Part shown: positions 37,244 to 51,928 of the stretch, in pieces
Layout of the letters: each line of letters opens with the position of its first letter
How positions within the stretch are numbered: the stretch's first letter is position 1
Assembly (NCBI GenBank): GCA_015272325.1
Contig: JACYLU010000017.1
Span: 62,001-126,000 of the forward strand
DNA length: 64,000 nucleotides
Origin: Synechococcales cyanobacterium C42_A2020_086
Lineage (GTDB): Bacteria; Cyanobacteriota; Cyanobacteriia; Elainellales; Elainellaceae
Direction: 5' to 3'
Notes under the pieces: model-generated
Databases searched by the model: none
Seen by the model: only the letters and a program-made list of their open reading frames with translations
What the model was told of the DNA's origin: nothing
Position numbers and translations under genes: made by a program

Positions 37244-39910
37244 ATGGCGTTTCCCTTTCCTAGGTTCAATCGTGTCGCTCCGGCGGTTTCCTCAATGCAG
37301 TTTTCGTTGCGTGTGGTAGAGGAGGCTGAAACTGAACTGGGAACGCTGCTGACTAAATTAGATACCTATCGCTATGGATTGACCGCAGCCGAGTCCCGTC
37401 GGCGACTCAAGCGATATGGCTGGAATGATGTGACCCATGAAGCCCCGCTGCCGTGGTATCGGCAATTTCTCAAGTCCTTCAACAACCCCTTTGTCTATTT
37501 GCTACTAGGATTGGCCATTGCCGCGAGCTTGACCCGGCAACTTCCAGAAACCCTGGTGCTGCTGGGAATGGTTTTCTTGAGCGGAGTGTTGCGCTTTATT
37601 CAGGAATACCGCTCGACCCAAGCCGCAGCAAAACTATGGGCGATTGCTGGAGCCACTGCCCTGATTAGCCGCTATGACGATCTTGTCCCGCGGGAACGGC
37701 AACAGCGAGTGCCAATTCGCAAGCTAGTGCCTGGAGATATTGTGCATTTGTCAGCGGGCGATATGGTCCCTGCTGATGTGCGGCTGCTTCAAGCAGAACA
37801 TTTATTTGTCAGTCAAGCCATCTTGACCGGAGAATCCAACCCAGTGCAAAAGCACGATACGTTGGGCAGTCGAGTCGAGAAAATGGCGATTCGGTATCAC
37901 CAAACCAATGATCCCTTCCAGACCCCGACGGTCTGTTTCATGGGAACAACCGTGATTGGAGGTCGGGCCAAAGCCGTTGTGGTGGCTACAGGTAACCAAA
38001 CTTATTTGGGATCTCTGTCTCAGGCTATTGCCGGTAAACGGGCGCGCACAAGTTTTGAAATGGGAATTAATCGAGTCACCGGGCTGCTGTTAGGGTTTAT
38101 CGCGGTTCTGGTGCCGATTGTGCTGCTGATTAACAGCATCAATTATGACGATTGGAATGAGTCCTTCCTGTTTGCGATTGCGGTTGCGGTGGGTCTGGTG
38201 CCAGAGATGTTGCCTCTGGTGGTGAGTGCTAACTTAGTACGGGGCGCCACGGCCCTGTCTAAGCAAAACGTGCTGGTAAAACGGCTGGATGCCATGCAGA
38301 ATTTAGGCGCAGTCGATATCCTCTGTACCGATAAGACCGGCACCCTGACCCAAAATCATATTTCCCTGATGGAACCCGTAGGAATTGACGGGACGGTAAC
38401 AGAAGAGCCGCTGCGATATGCCTATCTCAATAGCTATCACCAGACCGGGATCCGCAATGCATTAGATGCCGCCATCTTGGAATGCAGAGCGTTGCCCGCT
38501 GAGTTGAATCCGGAAACCGCTCATGCCAAGTTAGGAGAAATTCCCTTTGACTTTGTGCGACGCCGATTGTCAGTTGTTGTAGAGCAGGATGGAGTGCCCT
38601 GGTTGATTTGCAAAGGCGCAGTGGCAGAAGTGATCACCCTTTGCACAACCGCCCAATGGCAGGGGCAAGTGGTTCCCCTAGCACCGACTTTGTATCAAGA
38701 AACGCTGCAACGGGTCCGTCAGCTTCAGGCAGATGGACTGCGGGTGCTGGCTGTTGCCTATCGCCGCTTCTCGGCACCCAAAGAAAGGTATAGCCCAGAC
38801 GATGAGGTTGACCTGACCTTAGTAGGCTATGTCACGTTTCTTGACCCCCCCAAAACCAGTGCCAAAGCAGCGATCACAGCATTGCAAGAGCACGGAGTGG
38901 CCGTCAAAGTGATCACGGGCGATGAGGAAACCATTACCCGGCGGATTTGCCAGGAGGTAGGAGTTGCGGTGCAGCAGGTCTACCTGGGTGCTAGCGTTGA
39001 GCGGATGACAGACGCCGAACTCGCGGATGCGGTGGAAGAAGCGACCATCTTTGCCCGCATGTCGCCTGCTCAGAAAGCTCGCGTGATCCGCATTCTCAAG
39101 CAGGCAGGACACGCAGTGGGCTACTTGGGCGATGGCATTAATGATGCTCTAGCCCTGCGCGATGCCGATGTTGGTATTTCCGTCGATACGGCTGCTGATG
39201 TTGCCAAAGAATCGGCCGACATCATTCTGCTGGAAAAGAGTTTGATGGTGTTGGAGCAGGGAATCATGGAAGGTCGCCGCACCTTTGGTAACCTAACCAA
39301 ATATCTCAAGATGGCAACCAGCTCCAACTTTGGCAACGTCTTTAGCGTCGTGGGAGCCAGTGCATTCCTTCCGTTTCTACCGATGCTGCCCCTGCAACTT
39401 CTGGTGCAAAACCTGCTGTATGACCTGTCGCAAATTGCTATCCCCTTCGACCGAGTGGATGCGACCTATCTCGCCAAGCCGCAAGCCTGGTCTGCATCGG
39501 ATCTGCGCCGCTTTATGCTGCATTTGGGGCCTGTCAGTTCTGTATTTGACTATGCCACCTTTGCTCTACTCTGGTTTGGCTTGGGAGCAACTACCGACGC
39601 CAATGCTGCTTTGTTCCAGTCTGGCTGGTTTGTGCAAGGCTTGCTCTCCCAAACCCTGATTATTCACCTGCTGCGAACCGAGAAAATTCCCTTCCTGCAG
39701 AGCACAGCAACGCTGCCGGTATTGGTCATGACCGGACTGGTCATGGTGATTGCCCTGTTGCTGCCCTTTACCTCTCTGGGAGCCACTCTGGGGTTAGTGC
39801 CACTGCCGGCGATCTATTTCCCCTGGCTGATAGTGATTCTGGTTGGTTATGGCCTGCTGACCCAGATAGTCAAAATGGCGTACATCCGCCGATTTAAAGC
39901 CTGGCTGTAA
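37244..39910 (+). CDS. mgtA: MgtA-type (P3B) magnesium-translocating P-type ATPase
   Basis: An 888-residue P-type ATPase. The phosphorylation motif DKTGTLT is at D363, TGES is present (AILTGESNPVQK) and GDGIND is at about 630. The membrane block VAVGLVPEMLPLVVSANLVR, then GATALSKQNVLVKRLDAMQN, and the C-terminal LLVQNLLYDLSQIAIPFDRV, are diagnostic of MgtA/MgtB rather than calcium or heavy-metal pumps. MgtA imports Mg2+ when it is scarce. It is followed on the same strand, after 233 bp, by an HMA-EamA fusion gene. mgtE and an mgtC family gene lie within 14 kb. Confidence 0.9.
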   Translation: MAFPFPRFNRVAPAVSSMQFSLRVVEEAETELGTLLTKLDTYRYGLTAAESRRRLKRYGWNDVTHEAPLPWYRQFLKSFNNPFVYLLLGLAIAASLTRQLPETLVLLGMVFLSGVLRFIQEYRSTQAAAKLWAIAGATALISRYDDLVPRERQQRVPIRKLVPGDIVHLSAGDMVPADVRLLQAEHLFVSQAILTGESNPVQKHDTLGSRVEKMAIRYHQTNDPFQTPTVCFMGTTVIGGRAKAVVVATGNQTYLGSLSQAIAGKRARTSFEMGINRVTGLLLGFIAVLVPIVLLINSINYDDWNESFLFAIAVAVGLVPEMLPLVVSANLVRGATALSKQNVLVKRLDAMQNLGAVDILCTDKTGTLTQNHISLMEPVGIDGTVTEEPLRYAYLNSYHQTGIRNALDAAILECRALPAELNPETAHAKLGEIPFDFVRRRLSVVVEQDGVPWLICKGAVAEVITLCTTAQWQGQVVPLAPTLYQETLQRVRQLQADGLRVLAVAYRRFSAPKERYSPDDEVDLTLVGYVTFLDPPKTSAKAAITALQEHGVAVKVITGDEETITRRICQEVGVAVQQVYLGASVERMTDAELADAVEEATIFARMSPAQKARVIRILKQAGHAVGYLGDGINDALALRDADVGISVDTAADVAKESADIILLEKSLMVLEQGIMEGRRTFGNLTKYLKMATSSNFGNVFSVVGASAFLPFLPMLPLQLLVQNLLYDLSQIAIPFDRVDATYLAKPQAWSASDLRRFMLHLGPVSSVFDYATFALLWFGLGATTDANAALFQSGWFVQGLLSQTLIIHLLRTEKIPFLQSTATLPVLVMTGLVMVIALLLPFTSLGATLGLVPLPAIYFPWLIVILVGYGLLTQIVKMAYIRRFKAWL

Positions 39911-40143
39911 CCCGCTTCCTGAATCTTGCCTAACTCAGTACAATCATTGCACTGCTTCTTGTTTACATTACTCCTAATGGGTTTCGTTTGGGTTTAGACG
40001 GGGGTTTGAGCAGTTCACTCATTGAACCCGTTGCACAACCCGTTGCAAGAATAAACAAGTGACGTTACCTAGACCCCTGAGCACCCGAACCTGCGAGTTT
40101 CTTGCTCGCGTTTTTGACTCATTGCATTCTGCGGCAACACCCC

Positions 40144-41331
40144 ATGCGCGATGATACTACCCTGTCCGTCATTGTGGTTCATACCACTGCCAGTCGCTCT
40201 CGGTTTCGCATTCCTCGCCTAGCCGAAGATCCAGTGTTTATAGCCCATCTACTCCAGCAAACCTATGCCCTAGCAGGCATCACTGCCGCACGAGTCAATT
40301 CCCTAGCTCGATCCCTGATTGTGCATCATGAGCCTAGTGTACGAATTGCAGACCTGCACTCCCGGATCACGGAGGCTACAAAGCGGGCGGCTACCCTCTC
40401 CCTGTCGGGGCAACTGCCCTCACACTCCTGGGAATCTGAAGTAGAACTGTCTGCCTCAGGAGCATGGCCAGCTATTGGTTGGGTCCTCCTGGCAACGGGT
40501 AGCTACGCTACTTTGCAGGCAACCATTCGCTTGATTGCTGGGAGCCTCCACCCCTTTCAAATTGTGTTCTTAAACAATCTGTTTGCAGTTGGGTTGCTGC
40601 TGCCCGTGTTGACTGTTGATGGTCTGAGCACCACCAAACTGCCGCTCCATGGGCTACGAGCAATTCTGGATGCGGGAGCGTCGTTACTGTTGGTATCGGG
40701 GCTGAGTTTGCTGCCCCTAGCCCAGGTCAATGCCTTGGGCGCCACCACCCCCCTGTTTGCGATGATGGGTGCCTCTCTCGTTTTGGGAGAAGCCTTACGC
40801 CCCCAACGGTGGATTTCTCTCCTGCTGGGAATGGTTGGGATGCTGGTGATTGTGCGTCCCGGTTTAGCCGGAATGGGTCTAGGTGCACTGCTGACATTGG
40901 GTGGCTCGATCGCGTTTGCAGGGGTGGTGCTGCTGCTCAAGGTTCTGTCTCGCACAGATTCCAGCCTGACGATCATTGCCTACAACGCCCTTCTGCTTAC
41001 CCCCCTGACCTTTATTCCAGCACTCTGGGTGTGGACTGTTCCCACGCTAGGGGAACTAGCTCTATTGACCGCGGCGGCTGCCCTGGGTTTAGTGGGTCAA
41101 ATCTGTATGTTTCAGGCGCTAGAACAAGCAGATGCCACTACCGTATTGCCTGCGGATTTTGCTCAGTTTGTTTGGGCGAGTGTCTTGGGCTTTGTGCTGT
41201 TCCAAGAAGTGCCTGATCTGTGGACTTGGCTAGGGGGACTGCTGATTTTTGCTGGAGTCATTGGTGTGGCAAATTCAGAACCCGAGGAACCCAAGGAGCA
41301 AGCTTGCTTACTGCTGCTGGAGAGTGCTTAG
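40144..41331 (+). CDS. EamA/DMT transporter fused to an N-terminal HMA-like domain
   Basis: About 395 residues from the ATG at 40144; a TTG at 40102 is an alternative. Residues about 5-95 (VVHTTASRSRFRIPRLAEDP, then AGITAARVNSLARSLIVHHE) align by eye with the N-terminal domain of the P-type ATPase at 43.8-46.5 kb (IVHRTTHRIRIRIPRLRNDP, RMNAFAESIVVEYRP). This is the HMA_2-type ferredoxin-like fold without the CxxC metal pair. Residues about 110-380 have about 10 membrane segments with two EamA repeats (QVNALGATTPLFAMMGASLV, then GMLVIVRPG). DMT proteins export small metabolites; the substrate here is unknown. I know of no described EamA protein with this domain. Its 3' end overlaps the convergent ATPase-like gene by 24 bp. 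Confidence 0.85.
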   Translation: MRDDTTLSVIVVHTTASRSRFRIPRLAEDPVFIAHLLQQTYALAGITAARVNSLARSLIVHHEPSVRIADLHSRITEATKRAATLSLSGQLPSHSWESEVELSASGAWPAIGWVLLATGSYATLQATIRLIAGSLHPFQIVFLNNLFAVGLLLPVLTVDGLSTTKLPLHGLRAILDAGASLLLVSGLSLLPLAQVNALGATTPLFAMMGASLVLGEALRPQRWISLLLGMVGMLVIVRPGLAGMGLGALLTLGGSIAFAGVVLLLKVLSRTDSSLTIIAYNALLLTPLTFIPALWVWTVPTLGELALLTAAAALGLVGQICMFQALEQADATTVLPADFAQFVWASVLGFVLFQEVPDLWTWLGGLLIFAGVIGVANSEPEEPKEQACLLLLESA

Positions 41332-43539
41332 TGAATCATGCAGATGAGGGTCTGGAGCAAACCAGAAGGGGCGCAGAGCGTTTAAAACCGCGAGTAAATT
41401 CACGGCGTTGTTGATCACGACCACTAGAATTGGATCGAGAATCAGCAATATTCCCAAGGTCGTTGCCCCTAGGTGCGGCAAGGTAATCAGGGCAATATTT
41501 TGTTGCACTAGGGCCATTGCTTCATCGGCGATGTTGAACGCCGTCACTAACGTCAGGAGATTTCCGTAGGGCAGTCGAATGTCTGCGATGCGCTGAATCG
41601 ACGGGCAAGAGTGATGCCTGCCTACAGCGATATCCGCATAGCAGAGGGCAGGATAGTCATCCATACCTTCGCCCATGTAGACCACCGTATGCCCCTGCTC
41701 CTGAAGACGGCAAACAAAGGCTTTTTTGTCTTCCGGGGTGAGTTCGGCGAAAACGGCACTGGGGTCTAGCCCAACTTGAGAAGCAATCGCGGCTGCCACG
41801 TCGGAGGCACCCCCCGTAACAACATACACCGTCAATCCGCGCTGCTGTAGGTAAGACAATACCGCTCGACTGTCGGGATGGACGCTGGCACAGCAGATGA
41901 TCTGACCCATGAGCTGCCCGTCTACAGCGATGTAGATGTACCAATAGCCTTGATACTCTCCATCTCGGGCTTGAGAGGGAGGGGCGACCGCGTCAGGAAA
42001 AGCAATGCCAGCCTGATTCAAATAACTACAGCTACCTACAAGAACCCAGTAACCATTGACCTGAGCGGAAATCCCCAGACCTTGACTTGTTTGAAGTGCA
42101 CAGGCTTGGCTGAGCGGAATGGTCAACCCTCGCTGTTGGGCGTAGGCTGTAATGGCTTGGAACACCGGATGCTGAAATTTGGCTTCACACTGCCCCGCTG
42201 CTGCCGCTAGTGCCAATAGCCAGTTTGCTGGGTCGGAGCCTGGGGAAGAGATGGGCATGTTTGAGTGAAGGTCTGAGTGAAGGATCTCAATCGCCACCAC
42301 CGATAGCTCTTTGCCAGTTAGGTTGCCTGTTCGTGCAAATACCACCGTATCGGCTTGGGTCAATAGCTCAAACACTCGCCCCGAGCGGATGTAGATATTT
42401 TGCTGCTGAGCATAGAGCATCATAGAAAGAATAGCTGTGGGCGCAGAGAGTCGCACCCCGGTCACCAGATCCAATTGGAGGGGGGCTAACGCCCGTTCCA
42501 GGTTCTGGGTCCATAACAATAAACCGCCCGAAAGCGCTAAAGTCGGCAAAATCAGAGTCTCACCGACGATTTTGGCGTAGTCACTCAGCTGCGTTTGGTG
42601 CAGGGGAGCCGCCTCTGCCAACAGCACCTCCTGAGCATATTGCGTCTGATCGCCCAGAGACTCTACCCGTACCCGGATCTGTCCATCCATGACCGTACAG
42701 CCTGCTGGAATCGGGTTGCCCATGCCTACGGGTAAGGGAGCCGGTTCACCCGTCAGGATGCTGAAATCTAACCAGGCTTCTCCTTCCAAAATGAAACCAT
42801 CGACGGGACAAGTATCCTCTGCAATCAGCAGAATTTGGTCGCCGGGGCCCAACTCGGACAGTGGCAGCACTTGCGGTTGTCCCTCTCGGATCAGCCGCAC
42901 TCGCTGTACATCGGGAAGGAGGCTAGTTGAGGGTATGGCTGGTGCCCTCTCGTAGGTCGACTCCTGGAGCCAGTCGCCGGTTTCAGCGAGAACCAGATCC
43001 AGATTGGGTGCGACAAAATCTCCAGTCAACCCGTGAAAAATCGTCCAGAGGGATTCCAAAATTTCTTCATCCACTTTCCCTTGAGCTAAATCCTGACGAG
43101 TGCGCTCTAGAACTGGAAAAGCCGCCACTAGAGTAACCATCCCTAAGACTATGGGAGGAATTGCCAATTCCATCGCTCCTGCCAGGACGGCCAAACCCAA
43201 GCCCAATGCAGGTAGAGCAATTCGCTGGAGCAACTCGAGTTCTGATGGTTTGCTCGACGGCTTCGCAGGGTCAGGAGGGGGCGGCAATGGCCCTTCTAGC
43301 GGAACCTGCTTCATAAACTGCTGCACCTGCGCCAGGATAGCCGTTGCTGTGGATTGAGCCGGTGTGTATTCAATAATCAGAGAGCAAGCCGGATAGTTGA
43401 CTCGAATTTGCCTGAACCCAGGATGAGCAAGCAGATGCGTTTGCACCGCCTCCGCCCAACCAGACGCATGCCGCATCCCAGCAATTCTCAGTCGTAAGCG
43501 TCCCGGGATCTGGTGAACAATCTGGATCTCGCCGCTCAT
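41308..43539 (-). CDS. P-type ATPase homologue with a mutated phosphorylation site (pseudo-pump)
   Basis: About 743 residues from the ATG at 43539; a TTG at 43551 is also open. The N-terminal HMA-like domain (IVHQIPGRLRLRIAGMRHAS, then RVNYPACSLIIEYTP) is followed by a proline-rich linker and a P1B-type core. TGE (about 263-265) and HP (about 457-458) are kept. The DKTGTLT motif reads ARTGNLT (about 402-408; the codon at 42334-42336 is GCA for Ala), TGD reads TGG, and GDGxND reads GEGMDD. CPC is replaced by SAP. The frame is intact, so the protein is probably made but cannot form the aspartyl phosphate. It sits right after a small DUF454-like gene and downstream of an intact paralogue. Confidence 0.85.
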   Translation of the reverse strand: MSGEIQIVHQIPGRLRLRIAGMRHASGWAEAVQTHLLAHPGFRQIRVNYPACSLIIEYTPAQSTATAILAQVQQFMKQVPLEGPLPPPPDPAKPSSKPSELELLQRIALPALGLGLAVLAGAMELAIPPIVLGMVTLVAAFPVLERTRQDLAQGKVDEEILESLWTIFHGLTGDFVAPNLDLVLAETGDWLQESTYERAPAIPSTSLLPDVQRVRLIREGQPQVLPLSELGPGDQILLIAEDTCPVDGFILEGEAWLDFSILTGEPAPLPVGMGNPIPAGCTVMDGQIRVRVESLGDQTQYAQEVLLAEAAPLHQTQLSDYAKIVGETLILPTLALSGGLLLWTQNLERALAPLQLDLVTGVRLSAPTAILSMMLYAQQQNIYIRSGRVFELLTQADTVVFARTGNLTGKELSVVAIEILHSDLHSNMPISSPGSDPANWLLALAAAAGQCEAKFQHPVFQAITAYAQQRGLTIPLSQACALQTSQGLGISAQVNGYWVLVGSCSYLNQAGIAFPDAVAPPSQARDGEYQGYWYIYIAVDGQLMGQIICCASVHPDSRAVLSYLQQRGLTVYVVTGGASDVAAAIASQVGLDPSAVFAELTPEDKKAFVCRLQEQGHTVVYMGEGMDDYPALCYADIAVGRHHSCPSIQRIADIRLPYGNLLTLVTAFNIADEAMALVQQNIALITLPHLGATTLGILLILDPILVVVINNAVNLLAVLNALRPFWFAPDPHLHDSLSTLQQQ

Positions 43540-43554
43540 TAAAATGGTCAATCC

Positions 43555-43809: not shown

Positions 43810-46539
43810 CTACGCTTCCCTGCGCCGTGCCTGCCAGGCCTCTCCAGCGCGCCGTGCAGGAAAAGTATGTACAGGAATGGGTTTAGCTCGTATCGGACGA
43901 AAGACCTGAGAAGACGCTTCATAGGTCCAGGCGACACCGTCCGGATCACGGTCACGGCTCCACTGGCCAAAGTTCTGCTGCTGTTTGCGGCGAGAGATGG
44001 TTTGGGGCGAAGTTCCTAGTCGAGTGGCCAGCTCTTTCTGGATCAAGGTATCGAGTCGGGAGACAGGAAGCGAAACTGCCTGAATCGCGGATGCAGATAT
44101 GGTAGGTGTCCGGGGTCGGTCTTTTGCTGTCTGAACCTCGCCCCATTCCGATTGAAAGGATTGCTCTTGATCGGTTGTCGTGAGAGAGATGACCGCCGGT
44201 TGTGATGCTATCATCGAGCTGAACCCATCCATCGTCACTTGACTGGGTCCCAAGAGTGGGCGGAGACCGTTGAGTTCTGCCAGAATGGCTGACCCATTAT
44301 TGATCAAGATAGCCAGAACAGGATTGAGCGCAAAGAGGACTCCTGCCAGCACCGCACTCAAGTTCGGCACAATCACCATCGCAATGTTCTGAGTAACGAT
44401 TTCCATTGCATGTTCGGCAATGTGCAGAGCCTGAAGCAGTTGCGTCAGCCGGTCGTCCATTAGCACCACATCGGCTGTTTCTCGGGCAATGCCGCTGGCG
44501 GCCGCAAAGGAAATAGAAACATCGGCATATGCTAGAGCGGCGGAGTCGTTGATGCCATCTCCACAAAAGGCAACGGTCTTGCCACTCTCATGCAGGGCTT
44601 GCACCACCTCTACTTTGCGCTCTGGGAACGCCTCTGCATAGACGTTGCCTCTGGGAATGCCTAAATCGTCCGCAATCGCATTGGCAATGCGGGCTTCATC
44701 GCCACTCAGGATGTAGACCTCAATGCCGCGTGCCTGTAGGGCTTGTACCACAGTGCGGCTTTCCGCTCGCAGCGGATCGCTATATAGAATTACCCCCATC
44801 AAGTCACCATCAATGGCGACATAAACTAGCGAGTGCGGCCCGGATTCCAAATCCGGATAGCGATTGTGCAGTTCTTGTACTGGGATCTGCCATGTGGTCA
44901 TCATCCGATGGCTGCCAACTAGCACTGTGCGCCCATCAATGTGCGCTTTGACCCCTAGCCCGACGTGATACTCCCATTCATCGCACGATCGCAAAGATAG
45001 CTGCAGGTTGCGAGCATGGCGAATGATTGCCTCTGCTACTGGATGCGTCAAACCTTGCTCGGCGGTTGCTGCCATTGTTAGGAGGTGAGTTTCAGAGACA
45101 TCCGATCTCAGCAGCTTGATGCCAGTCACGCCGGCTTGTCCTTGAGTCAGGGTGCCGGTTTTGTCAAAGACAATCACATCGACATCGCACAGCAGTTCGA
45201 TTGTGCGTCCGGTGCGAATCAGAATACCGTTGCGAGCGGCATAGGTGAGAGCAGACAGTACAGTGGTTGGCACGGAGATGCGAATCCCGGTGCCCACATC
45301 GAGTGTCAGAAGTGAAATAGCGCGACCGACATCGCCACTAACCGTGCCGACTATCGCCGAGAGCAGCAGCGTCGGAGCAACGAGCTGGTTAGCAATTCTC
45401 GTCGCAAAGTTAGAAACGCGCGTATCGTGAACTGGAGCAGACTGCATAAGATTGGCAATCACCCCCGCTCGGGTATTGGCTCCAATGCGTTCCGCGACAA
45501 TACACAGATGACCGTCTACCAGGATCGTGGAAGCGAAGACCTCTTCCCCTTTTACTCGCGTCACAGGGATGGATTCCCCAGTGAGTTTGCACTGATCCAC
45601 TAGTCCTGCTCCCCGCACAATCGTGCCATCCACTGGAATCAGGTCCCCTGGGTAAACTATCACGCGGTCGCCCACAATCACTTGGTCGATGGGAACGTGC
45701 AACTCACGCCCATCCCGCTCCACAATCGCCTCGGTTCCCAAACAGCTCAGCAGGTCCAAAGAAGCGCGGTTGCTGCTGCGAGCAGTAATGTCTCGAATGA
45801 CCTCCCCACCTTCTACCATCCCTAGCATCAAGGCGGGTGCAAAGAAGCTGCCCTGAATCGTATGTAGAGTAATGGCTAGACCATCTAACAGATCAATTGA
45901 CAGTTCTCGATCGCGGAAGAGAGCAGAAAAGGCTCGATCGTACACTGGACGAGCTGCAATTAGAATGACCGCTCCAACCATGAGAGCAGGCAGCGGCACT
46001 TCGATCATCGCCGCAAAGCCCAATAGCAAACCCAATCCCGGTAAGCCCAACCGCTCCCATACATCCACCCCTTCAGACTCGGATTCATCCTGGGACTCTG
46101 GATTTAGAGCCAGAACGGCCTCTAAGCTGACCTCGGATGCTCGCTGAATGGCTTGAACAATCTGAACCTCAACGGCTGCAACTGCCTCTGGACTGATCTC
46201 GGGGCGATATTCCACCACAATCGACTCTGCAAAGGCATTCATTCGAATTTGATCTATCCCCTCAAAGCCTTGAATCAGGCTGCGCAGTGTCTCGGCATAT
46301 TCCGGGTCATTCCGCAGTCGAGGAATGCGAATACGAATGCGATGCGTGGTGCGATGAACAATCCTATACTCAACTAGGTATTCAACCAGAGATGGTGAGA
46401 CCTCAAAATGGTTGTCAAGTTGCATAGAAGAACCTAGCTTGGAAGCAACTGCTACCAAGGGTTGAGATTCAGAAGCGTCAGAGACCATTTTCCTCGGGAT
46501 GGGCCAATGGTGGATGACCGTATGGCTATTAGAGAACAT
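43810..46539 (-). CDS. P-type ATPase with HMA-like N-terminus and HTH-like C-terminal tail
   Basis: Up to 909 residues; a start at 46488 (GAGGAAA close upstream) is an alternative. Order: HMA-like domain without CxxC (about residues 55-115); membrane helices; actuator with TGES (319-322); helix with ISVPTT (421-426) where P1B pumps have CPC; D459-KTGTLT; HP (499-500); GDGIND (660-665); final helices. Residues about 825-880 then carry DTLIQKELATRLGTSPQTIS, RRKQQQNF and SRDRDPDGVAWTYE, a helix-turn-helix-like unit followed by an RDPDGxAWxY motif seen at the ends of other cyanobacterial proteins. The catalytic machinery is complete. The transported ion is unknown, since the metal-site motif is atypical. 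It is downstream of DUF5132. Confidence 0.87.
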   Translation of the reverse strand: MFSNSHTVIHHWPIPRKMVSDASESQPLVAVASKLGSSMQLDNHFEVSPSLVEYLVEYRIVHRTTHRIRIRIPRLRNDPEYAETLRSLIQGFEGIDQIRMNAFAESIVVEYRPEISPEAVAAVEVQIVQAIQRASEVSLEAVLALNPESQDESESEGVDVWERLGLPGLGLLLGFAAMIEVPLPALMVGAVILIAARPVYDRAFSALFRDRELSIDLLDGLAITLHTIQGSFFAPALMLGMVEGGEVIRDITARSSNRASLDLLSCLGTEAIVERDGRELHVPIDQVIVGDRVIVYPGDLIPVDGTIVRGAGLVDQCKLTGESIPVTRVKGEEVFASTILVDGHLCIVAERIGANTRAGVIANLMQSAPVHDTRVSNFATRIANQLVAPTLLLSAIVGTVSGDVGRAISLLTLDVGTGIRISVPTTVLSALTYAARNGILIRTGRTIELLCDVDVIVFDKTGTLTQGQAGVTGIKLLRSDVSETHLLTMAATAEQGLTHPVAEAIIRHARNLQLSLRSCDEWEYHVGLGVKAHIDGRTVLVGSHRMMTTWQIPVQELHNRYPDLESGPHSLVYVAIDGDLMGVILYSDPLRAESRTVVQALQARGIEVYILSGDEARIANAIADDLGIPRGNVYAEAFPERKVEVVQALHESGKTVAFCGDGINDSAALAYADVSISFAAASGIARETADVVLMDDRLTQLLQALHIAEHAMEIVTQNIAMVIVPNLSAVLAGVLFALNPVLAILINNGSAILAELNGLRPLLGPSQVTMDGFSSMIASQPAVISLTTTDQEQSFQSEWGEVQTAKDRPRTPTISASAIQAVSLPVSRLDTLIQKELATRLGTSPQTISRRKQQQNFGQWSRDRDPDGVAWTYEASSQVFRPIRAKPIPVHTFPARRAGEAWQARRREA

Positions 46540-46736: not shown

Positions 46737-47087
46737 CTACTCGGAAATAATTTCAACGGCTCTCGGCGGAGTGGGTTGCTCTTGCACCTTTGCTCGGGCT
46801 GCTCGATGCTCATCCTTCGCCTCAGCCACGAGATCATTAAAGGATTCTTGCGCGTCTGCAAAGGTAGACTGTATCCCTTCAATCACATCCATTCCCCAGA
46901 TCAAAGCACTTTTTGTCGCCTCCCGTGCCGACTGGGAAACCGATTCTCCTACTCCATTCAGCTTCTCGTCTTCTTTCACCCAATTGCCCACCGTATCCAC
47001 GACTGGTGCTAACAGGACTGCCCCAACCCCAACCGCTAGCGCAGTAATCGGCTCGATTCCCAACAACAGAGCTTCTAGTTCAAACAT
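46737..47087 (-). CDS. DUF5132 domain-containing protein
   Basis: A 116-residue protein from the ATG at 47087. FELEALLLGIEPITALAVGV, then GAVLLAPVVDTVGNWVKEDE gives one Gly/Ala-rich membrane segment, followed by an amphipathic helical half (ESFNDLVAEAKDEHRAARAK). DUF5132 genes occur beside HMA-type P-type ATPase genes in cyanobacteria, as they do here, so it is likely an accessory subunit or membrane adaptor of the pump. It is the first gene of the minus-strand operon. Confidence 0.8.
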   Translation of the reverse strand: MFELEALLLGIEPITALAVGVGAVLLAPVVDTVGNWVKEDEKLNGVGESVSQSAREATKSALIWGMDVIEGIQSTFADAQESFNDLVAEAKDEHRAARAKVQEQPTPPRAVEIISE

Positions 47088-47324
47088 CTTTACCCAAGTA
47101 CTCAATGCATCACGATTATTAACAGTACACAATTTTTTGAAAGCAATAGAGTGATGCAGACGACAGTTTTAGTTCGAGAAGTAGCAGAGAGTCCTAGCTA
47201 AGAGGAAGTTGCAGACGTAATGTCAGAGAATATGCAATCTATAAAGTTAGCTGGTATGCCTCAATACATTAAATATTCAGCAATTGAGATACCCAGCAAT
47301 TGGCTCTCATAATCTCAGGCAAAC

Positions 47325-47790: not shown

Positions 47791-48293
47791 CTGCATTTCT
47801 ATCGCAAGATCGACAAGATCATTTGCCGCCAGTGAGCTGTGAACGTGCGCTGTGCAAGCTCTTTGTTTGTATTCGCTTTTTGCTCACGGTTCATCAAGGC
47901 TGTGAGGAGTTTGATTTGAAAAACAGCGAAGGATTGAGCATAGGAATGAATTATTTCTGTTTCTCTATGCTTAGTCGCTTTCGTTTTATCGTGAAGTGAC
48001 AGCCTGATTGTCATTCGGTTTCCTTGTAATTTCTCATCATTCCTCCCTAATCTTTCCTGCTAGGCATCCGTTTCTGATGCCGAAATCTCTGATGCTGAAA
48101 TAGGCCGACCTCCGATGATTGCATTCGGACGTTTGACCTGACCCATTGGGCTACCTTTTTTCAGAATTGTCTCAAAGACTTACTTAGAAATCTGCCCAGT
48201 ATTGATTATTCGTTGATTGCGCTTTCACAGCTCTGCAATTCAATACTGTTCTGTCATTTACTGTTCATTTACTGTTATTTCAGGAGAAGACCA
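47791..48293 (+). other. Remaining mgtE leader
   Basis: 503 bp with no supportable gene. TCCGA-N9-TCGGA (about 48112-48130) is a possible hairpin and CCTTTTTT follows within about 30 bp, so a premature stop of transcription is conceivable, but the stem is weak. No M-box or yybP-ykoY signature was found. mgtE is preceded by GGAGAAG, an excellent ribosome site. Confidence 0.35.
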
Positions 48294-49670
48294 ATGGCTA
48301 TCAATCCTTTGAACGATCTGCTGGCGTATCCCAAAGCATTGGGAGCTGCTAAACTCACTGCAAATCAGCTCAGCATCTCTGAATTACTGCGGTCACTCCG
48401 CGAAATCGATCCCCATAAGCGAGTGTTGGCGTTCCGGCTGCTAGAGAAAGAGAAAGCGATTGCCGTGTTCGATGCCCTCTATCCTGATGAACAAGCTACT
48501 TTAATCCAGGGTATGACTGATCCGGAAATTTTAGTATTTCTGGAAGCGCTTGAACCCGATCAGCGAGTGCGGTTGTTTGAAGAGCTGCCGGCTAAAGTGA
48601 CTAAGCGCTTGATGAGTCAACTCAGCCCTGACTCTCACCAGGCAGTTGATTTGCTGCTAGGTTATCCCGAAGGTAGCGCTGGACGCCGTATGAGTCTGCG
48701 TTATCTAGCAGTCCGAGAAACAACCGCCGTGGATGCGGTACTCGCTTTGGTGCGGGAATCCTGCCTGCGAGACAATGAACTGGACATGATCTTTGTGATT
48801 GATCAGCAACGGTTCTATCGCGGCTTCGTTCGCACGGTGCGTTTGATGAAAGCCGACCCTGACCTGCCCATTGCACAGCTCATTGATGGTAGAGACATTG
48901 CCATCCCTGCTACAGCACCTGAAATGCAAGCAGTCCGTCTGCTTAAAGACTATGATCTGCCTGCTATTCCTGTGGTGGATAGTGAAGGCCGACTCGTGGG
49001 CGATATTGCCTTTGATGATGTGATTGATTTGATTGAAGAAGAAGCATCAGCTGCTGCCCTTGCTCAAGCGGGAGTCGGTAATCTGCTGGGTCGCGACCAA
49101 GCTTGGAGTGAGAAACTAGTTCGAGGACCCATCCGCTACGCAGTTCAGCTCCGAATCGCCTGTTTAATCATTACTCTGATTGGCGGCATGCTGGTGGGTG
49201 GGGTAATTCAAAGCTTTGAAGAAATCCTGGAAGCGGTTGTTGTAGTCGCCATTTTCATTCCAGTCGTGATGGATATGGGAGGCAATGTCGGTACGCAATC
49301 TACTACGGTTTTTGCACGGGGGCTAGCATGGCAGCATATCGATGTCCGGCATTATGGAACGTATCTGTTTCGAGAGCTTCGCATTGGTCTGATCATGGGG
49401 TTGATTCTAGGAGCGACTGGCGGAACCATTGCCTATGTCTGGCAGGGCGTTCCAAATGGCATCCCTCAACTGGGGCTAGCAGTCGGGCTTTCCTTGTTTG
49501 CGGTTGTTACGCTAGCTGCCGTTTTGGGTGCCCTATTGCCCTGGCTCTTGCTCAAACTAGGCTTTGATCATGGACCAGCGGCTGACCCATTTGTAACTAC
49601 GATCAAGGATTTCACCGGCTTGCTGCTTTACTTCTACTTGGTGAGTTGGCTGCTGGGCATTCAGGCATAA
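48294..49670 (+). CDS. mgtE: Magnesium transporter/channel MgtE
   Basis: A 458-residue protein from the ATG at 48294, chosen because GGAGAAG lies 7 nt upstream; an open frame farther upstream is hydrophobic but unrelated. The N-domain (about residues 25-130; VFDALYPDEQATLIQGM, then LFEELPAKVTKRLMSQLSPD) is followed by paired CBS domains (about 140-265) that sense Mg2+, and then five membrane helices. VVMDMGGNVGTQSTTVFARG and GPAADPFVTTIKDFTGLLLY are the channel motifs. The unusually long upstream region holds the candidate regulatory elements listed separately. Confidence 0.94.
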   Translation: MAINPLNDLLAYPKALGAAKLTANQLSISELLRSLREIDPHKRVLAFRLLEKEKAIAVFDALYPDEQATLIQGMTDPEILVFLEALEPDQRVRLFEELPAKVTKRLMSQLSPDSHQAVDLLLGYPEGSAGRRMSLRYLAVRETTAVDAVLALVRESCLRDNELDMIFVIDQQRFYRGFVRTVRLMKADPDLPIAQLIDGRDIAIPATAPEMQAVRLLKDYDLPAIPVVDSEGRLVGDIAFDDVIDLIEEEASAAALAQAGVGNLLGRDQAWSEKLVRGPIRYAVQLRIACLIITLIGGMLVGGVIQSFEEILEAVVVVAIFIPVVMDMGGNVGTQSTTVFARGLAWQHIDVRHYGTYLFRELRIGLIMGLILGATGGTIAYVWQGVPNGIPQLGLAVGLSLFAVVTLAAVLGALLPWLLLKLGFDHGPAADPFVTTIKDFTGLLLYFYLVSWLLGIQA

Positions 49671-51226: not shown

Positions 51227-51928
51227 ATGTCCTGGATTGAATTTACCCTTCGGCTGGGTGTTGCTCTCCTGCTGGGTTCAGTCGTAGGACTGGAGCGTCA
51301 ATGGCGACAACGCATGGCGGGATTACGCACTAGCGCTTTGGTATCAACTGGAGCGGCTTTGTTTGTGCTGCTATCAGTCATGACGCCAGAAGAGGCCAGC
51401 CCAACCCGCATTGCTGCTCAGGTGGTTTCTGGAATTGGCTTTCTGGCAGGTGGGGTGATCCTGCGCGAAGGAGCCAACGTCCGTGGGCTGAATACCGCTG
51501 CAACCATCTGGTGTGCTGCTGCAATTGGCTGCCTTGCTGGTTCAGGATGGTTCACACAGGCATTCATTGGAACGTTGGTTATCCTGGTTGCCAATATTTT
51601 GCTGCGCCCGATTGGCTACAGGATCAATCAGCAGCCGCTCAAAGGCACAGAGGTTGAATTGTGCTATCGCTGCAGTGTGATTTGCAGCAGCAAGCATGAA
51701 GCCCATATCCGAGCTTTGCTACTACAAGCGGTGAACCCAAGTCGGATGAGGCTGCGAGCGCTACACAGTGAAGATCTAGAATCAACTCCTGACAAGGTTG
51801 AAGTAGAGGCTGATCTGGTCACCCAAGAACGGGACGATGCATTTTTAGAGACGATTGTTAGCCGTCTGAGCTTGGAAACGGGGGTCAGCGCGGTGAGTTG
51901 GCAGATTATCGAAGAAGAATACGGTTGA
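51227..51928 (+). CDS. MgtC/SapB family protein
   Basis: A 233-residue protein. Residues 1 to about 140 carry about four membrane segments with the family motifs GLERQWRQRMAGLRTSALVS, then GIGFLAGGVILREGANVRGL and NTAATIWCAAAIGCLAG. Residues about 145-233 form an ACT-like cytoplasmic domain. MgtC proteins are linked to growth at low Mg2+ and to control of membrane ATP synthase in enteric pathogens; in cyanobacteria the role is not established. Its position near mgtA and mgtE supports a cation role. Confidence 0.9.
   Translation: MSWIEFTLRLGVALLLGSVVGLERQWRQRMAGLRTSALVSTGAALFVLLSVMTPEEASPTRIAAQVVSGIGFLAGGVILREGANVRGLNTAATIWCAAAIGCLAGSGWFTQAFIGTLVILVANILLRPIGYRINQQPLKGTEVELCYRCSVICSSKHEAHIRALLLQAVNPSRMRLRALHSEDLESTPDKVEVEADLVTQERDDAFLETIVSRLSLETGVSAVSWQIIEEEYG

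Follow-up and report, generated by a model that had tools for sequence, protein, structure and literature searches.

The locus raises a simple question: what is a helix-turn-helix (HTH) domain doing at the end of a membrane pump? Work on P-type pumps usually treats them as single active chains. In the window, a stretch of 64,000 nucleotides from Synechococcales cyanobacterium C42_A2020_086, one such pump carries a predicted winged-helix tail which is common to other proteins of its locus and to 'dead' copies of the pump, and this suggests an unrecognised assembly or control of such pumps. The locus is probably tied to the handling of calcium and manganese in cyanobacteria.

A P1B-like pump without a CPC motif

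The 909-residue reading frame (Table 1) contains the Pfam domains HMA_2, E1-E2_ATPase and Hydrolase, and its score of 475.9 bits against TIGR01525, the P1B subfamily model, is far above the cut-off of 346.25. An earlier, sequence-only reading had described D459-KTGT, TGES, HP and GDGIND as intact. All were located in the frame, at residues 459, 320, 499 and 660 respectively, and the P1B catalytic set (DKTGT, TGE, HP, GDGxND) is complete. The pump can be aligned with the solved CopA structure over residues 188-744, and with CopA and ZntA over most of residues 188-762; its full-length AlphaFold model has an eight-helix arrangement. On these features the protein is predicted to be a working P-type pump of P1B fold, which would carry out transport.

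The membrane site is of a different kind from that of the copper and zinc pumps. No CPC, SPC or TPC-type metal site is present in M4. When the pump is aligned with Legionella CopA (3rfu), the CPC motif pairs with V415-G416-T417 (LLTLDVGTGIRISVPTT against VLIIACPCALGLATPMS). SVPTT had been proposed to stand in place of CPC or SPC; SVPTT exists (residues 422-426) and CPC is indeed missing, but the register was wrong, as SVPTT pairs with the conserved ATPxx which follows CPC (ATPMS in 3rfu). None of the six cysteines of the pump (266, 317, 346, 451, 519 and 659) falls within a predicted membrane helix, so that the site is not of the cysteine type. For the same reason classic Cu/Zn CPC chemistry is unlikely, in agreement with the earlier view that the ion is probably neither copper nor zinc. 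In 25 relatives D414 never varies and R420 and P424 hardly do, and an acidic, hard-cation transport site built on D414 and R420 would replace the cysteines. The core is a P1B-fold ATPase without the CPC feature, to be labelled P1B-like and not a Cu or Zn pump.

The N-terminal HMA_2 domain, in which H62, R67 and R69 are invariant, is a marginal match to PF19991 (30.2 bits against a gathering threshold of 30; 33.5 against 30 in the genome search).

Table 1. Features of the pump gene and its neighbours in the window
Feature	Position	Strand	Basis or remark
P1B-like ATPase, HMA_2-type, 909 aa, catalytically complete, C-terminal winged helix (predicted)	43810..46539	(-)	
N-terminal HMA_2 domain, aa 59-125, no Cys	46165..46365	(-)	PF19991 E=5e-7
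TGES phosphatase motif, aa 320-323	45571..45582	(-)	
M4 signature D414-V-G-T-G-I-R420-I-S-V-P424	45268..45300	(-)	alignment to 3rfu; 25 relatives
DKTGT, phosphorylated Asp = D459	45151..45165	(-)	
HP motif, aa 499-500	45040..45045	(-)	typical of P1B N domains
GDGIND, aa 660-665	44545..44562	(-)	
Flexible linker, aa 768-828	44056..44238	(-)	pLDDT about 31-43
C-terminal winged-helix module, aa 829-885, three helices and beta hairpin	43885..44055	(-)	AlphaFold, alignment
Alpha-class pseudo-P-type ATPase, 747 aa, HMA_2 domain, no tail	41308..43551	(-)	
HMA_2-like domain fused to EamA transporter, convergent gene	40102..41331	(+)	
Small DUF5132-like protein, upstream, same orientation	46737..47132	(-)	homologues beside pump in 8 loci

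The C-terminal tail

The sequence-only reading had counted about 100 extra residues after the last helix. The extension is in fact about 145 residues long in the AlphaFold model, and consists of the linker, the winged helix and a low-confidence end (residues 886-909). That the tail is HTH-like and folded, as had been proposed, is borne out by the prediction. Modelled separately, it has helices at 11-18, 22-28 and 34-41 and strands at 47-51 and 56-60 (pLDDT 92-95; 92-96 for the winged helix overall), and residues 829-885 are also confident in the full-length model, where they follow a disordered linker of about 60 residues. The fold is thus predicted to be a winged HTH, three helices followed by a beta-hairpin wing. 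A disordered tail is ruled out by this confident model. The eight-helix arrangement, together with the established topology of P1B pumps, would place the tail in the cytosol.

The tail contains KELATRLGTSPQTISRRKQQ at residue 835 and RDPDGVAW at residue 864. Seven residues (L, A, R, W, D, P and W) are invariant in an alignment of 39 diverse tails, the net charge of the core is +5, and helices 2 and 3 bear a canonical HTH signature in which the recognition helix has Q at its start and R/K at its end. No match was found with Foldseek at E<=0.001. The fold matches obtained with VIA-align were all weak, with Z no higher than about 4; among them are the DNA-binding proteins Xis, BldC and MarR and the Z-alpha domain as well as the protein-binding PCI domains of the proteasome lid and COP9. 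A search of PDB sequences with the tail profile gave weak HTH matches, and there is no Pfam, NCBIfam or PHROG family for the module, which has sub-threshold or weak matches to many HTH families, phage CII and terminase types among them. It had no match among phage records. Both sequence and predicted fold appear compatible with DNA binding and with protein binding.

Distribution of the module

A profile built from 16 sequences detects the module in 47 of 116 cyanobacterial class-level genomes (E<=1e-3), representing 38 of 71 genera, often at 1e-15 to 1e-27; the tail is therefore not a product of chance. Its presence in orthologues and in these 47 genomes also rules out a frameshift artefact or a feature private to one genome. 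The analysis thus brings out a widespread cyanobacterial module without an entry in the family libraries searched. It is carried by P-type ATPases, by response regulators (REC, PF00072), by proteins of about 250 residues whose N-terminus has membrane helices, by others with a membrane helix immediately ahead of the tail, and by RHH-like proteins, the last so called from a reading of their sequence, without a Pfam match. The earlier suggestion that the module recurs at the ends of unrelated cyanobacterial proteins is therefore upheld. Within the genome of the window there are four copies: on this pump, on a second pump (C8:110476), on a pseudo-pump (C8:125948) and on a 289-residue protein (C30:179832).

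In L063, L066, L068, L072, L074, L075 and L078 the module lies C-terminal to response regulator receivers, as an output domain unnamed in the libraries searched. Meanwhile L056, L059, L060 and L086-L093 represent a highly conserved family of about 250 residues, with an N-terminal membrane helix and a C-terminal winged helix, found in many cyanobacterial genomes.

The first residue of the third HTH segment separates the hosts. It is Q in 24 of 27 HMA_2-linked tails and S in 25 of 33 tails on other hosts, where the lone Q belongs to L045:2835, itself an HMA_2 protein (Fisher p about 2e-12, a value which overstates independence since the sequences are related). The split shows a single tail subtype in circulation within the HMA_2 system.

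Relatives of the pump are encoded at 31 loci, found with six search patterns of which one lies in the tail and introduces a small bias towards carriers. With the window pump and its paralogue counted, the tail is present on about 18 of 33 active pump orthologues (one carrier is cut by a contig end) and missing from about 15, in which tblastn found no remnant. Parsimony gives nine changes (gains or losses) on a tree that includes the tailed pseudo-pump L047. The sequence-only reading had named a tail both disordered and absent from orthologues as what would refute it; the absence is partial, and it follows that the tail is not essential to the pump family. Three genomes combine a tail-less pump with a tailed pseudo-pump (L023/G117, L024/G118 and L027/G119), in another (L044/G128) the pump lacks the tail and a small HMA_2 protein has it, and in four genomes with tail-less pumps there is no tail at all.

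Pseudo-pumps and small HMA_2 proteins

The pump is part of a recurrent HMA_2 locus with conserved pseudo-pumps. One of these adjoins it in the window: the 41308-43551 protein keeps the P-type fold, with ARTGN in place of DKTGT (Asp to Ala) and GEGMDD in place of GDGIND. On the tree it falls with L020:6630-8876 and L033:4733-6925 in a clade of full support, and all three have Ala for the catalytic Asp. The branches of this putative alpha class are long, yet the Asp-to-Ala change that its members share argues for the grouping. In a second class the entire N domain, DKTGT and GDGIND are lost; it comprises L047:8439-10601 (-), L015:10764-12650, L106:4441-6435, L107:6269-8332, L108:5992-7983 and L109:6381-8372; in the two members scanned with Pfam, from L106 and L109, E1-E2_ATPase was found and Hydrolase was not. 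Five of the six end in the winged-helix tail, the exception being L015. The module therefore occurs on three kinds of HMA_2 protein: the active pump, the N-domain-less pseudo-pump (L047, L106, L107, L108 and L109) and small HMA_2 proteins (L045, L101, L105 and L109).

In two of the small proteins (L045:2835-3818 and L101:904-1923) an HMA_2 domain is followed by a winged helix in mid-chain and a glycine-rich, glycine-zipper-like end. An Anaerolineae MAG (L039:1696-14024) encodes three adjacent HMA_2 P-type ATPases together with several small HMA_2 or DUF5132-like genes, and the tail was found nowhere in its genome.

Gene neighbourhood and the transported ion

A CAX Ca2+/H+ exchanger is encoded near the pump in 15 of 32 loci, a P2A Ca2+-ATPase in about 10 and MntP in several. 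On either side of the locus in the window are genes for an MgtA-type Mg2+ ATPase (37244-39910), MgtE (48213-49670) and an MgtC-family protein (51227-51928). Because of these neighbours a divalent ion is favoured, and divalent-cation homeostasis is the best inference for the role of the locus, although gene context is weak evidence as to which ion is moved, and the loci are themselves related. Other recurrent neighbours are Usp, FGE-sulfatase, ParB-like, DUF5132, NosAFP/Get3-type ATPase and DUF1345 proteins. The fusion of an HMA_2-like domain to an EamA drug/metabolite transporter also recurs near the pump (L016:5109-6260 and L045:3815-4975).

Role of the tail

The reading preferred here, tentatively and with a probability of about 0.45, is that of a divalent-cation pump whose mobile winged-helix tail is a shared docking domain. 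The pump would most likely export from the cytosol a hard divalent cation, whether Ca2+, Mn2+ or Mg2+, with the mobile cyanobacterial module held at its cytosolic C-terminus on a leash of some 60 residues. The tail would most likely act in docking and not in DNA binding: through one tail subtype, the pump, pseudo-pump and small HMA_2 proteins of the locus would be brought to a common partner or to each other, and the active pump would thereby be assembled with, or held by, its partners. Docking is favoured because the same module is found on all three kinds of HMA_2 protein, because it sits on the pseudo-pump (G117, G118, G119) or the small HMA_2 protein (G128) when the pump is without it, and because the Q subtype is common to the HMA_2-linked tails. 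A search of the regions upstream of 12 orthologous pump genes for a conserved operator found none, which also favours docking, though as evidence against DNA binding it is weak. Against docking, the shared Q may come from common tail ancestry only, and the four genomes with tail-less pumps and no tail mean that docking cannot be essential. A bolder reading, though an unlikely one, is a transport system built as a hetero-oligomer, in which one shared winged helix joins the active pump, its dead copies (Ala for Asp, or no N domain) and small HMA_2 proteins, and possibly ties them to the nucleoid.

A serious rival is DNA binding, since the motif is a canonical one and response regulators are among the hosts. 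The pump would then act as a transceptor: tethered to the membrane like CadC or ToxR, it would regulate transcription, such as that of its own locus, according to its state of transport. This is doubtful but deserves attention: the residues at either end of the recognition helix, the positive core, the winged-helix DNA binders and phage-type HTHs among the matches, and response-regulator and RHH-like hosts, which usually bind DNA, are all in its favour. The fold matches are uniformly weak, however, and extend to the protein-binding PCI domains; no conserved palindrome lies upstream of the pump gene in the 12 loci or in the window, where inverted repeats were sought and none found, and the module sits now on the pump and now on the pseudo-pump. 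An intramolecular role is another alternative. P-type ATPases commonly bear terminal regulatory extensions (PMC10654040), and a tail on so long a linker could reach the A or N domain of its own pump and inhibit it, as terminal R domains do. Such autoinhibition is improbable, given that the module occurs on hosts without a pump domain and on pseudo-pumps without an N domain; the low confidence of the linker in the single-chain model makes the placement of the tail relative to the pump unreadable. Least probable of all is a promiscuous passenger kept by drift with no effect on the pump. At least nine gains or losses and the many orthologues without a tail would suit it, but drift accords poorly with core residues invariant across the diverse copies and with a recognition-helix residue specific to HMA_2 hosts.

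With active and dead pumps that share a domain of DNA-binding type in one conserved set, pump assembly or transcriptional coupling would become directly testable.

Comparison with known systems

A winged-helix tail on a P-type pump and a conserved set of pseudo-pumps appear to be undescribed within the part of the literature searched, and we know of no pump and pseudo-pump set of this kind among P-type ATPases. The nearest known systems include the heavy-metal P1B ATPases CopA and ZntA (TIGR01525), which have the same P-, A- and N-domain motifs, the HP motif and eight helices. The pump differs from them in lacking CPC, SPC or any membrane cysteine, in having D414-x-G-T-G-x-R420 in M4, in bearing HMA_2 in place of a CxxC HMA domain, and in its tail. 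Its N-terminal domain resembles the HMA_2 family (PF19991), just above the cut-off, with invariant basic H/R residues and no cysteine, and presumably fits the description of CoBaHMA, a domain family reportedly described in cyanobacterial calcium-carbonate work; the winged-helix tail is, to our knowledge, not part of that description. The P1B-6 ATPases (FezB of ferrosomes), whose hallmarks are an SCA-type M4 motif and the fez operon, are presumably also alike in their P1B core without CPC and their non-cysteine HMA-like N-terminus, a lead by description only. CadC and ToxR are membrane-tethered winged helices and RodZ has a protein-binding HTH; likened by description only, all three are membrane proteins with an HTH or winged helix in the cytosol. 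Their hosts, however, are sensors or scaffolds, whereas here the host is a P-type pump.
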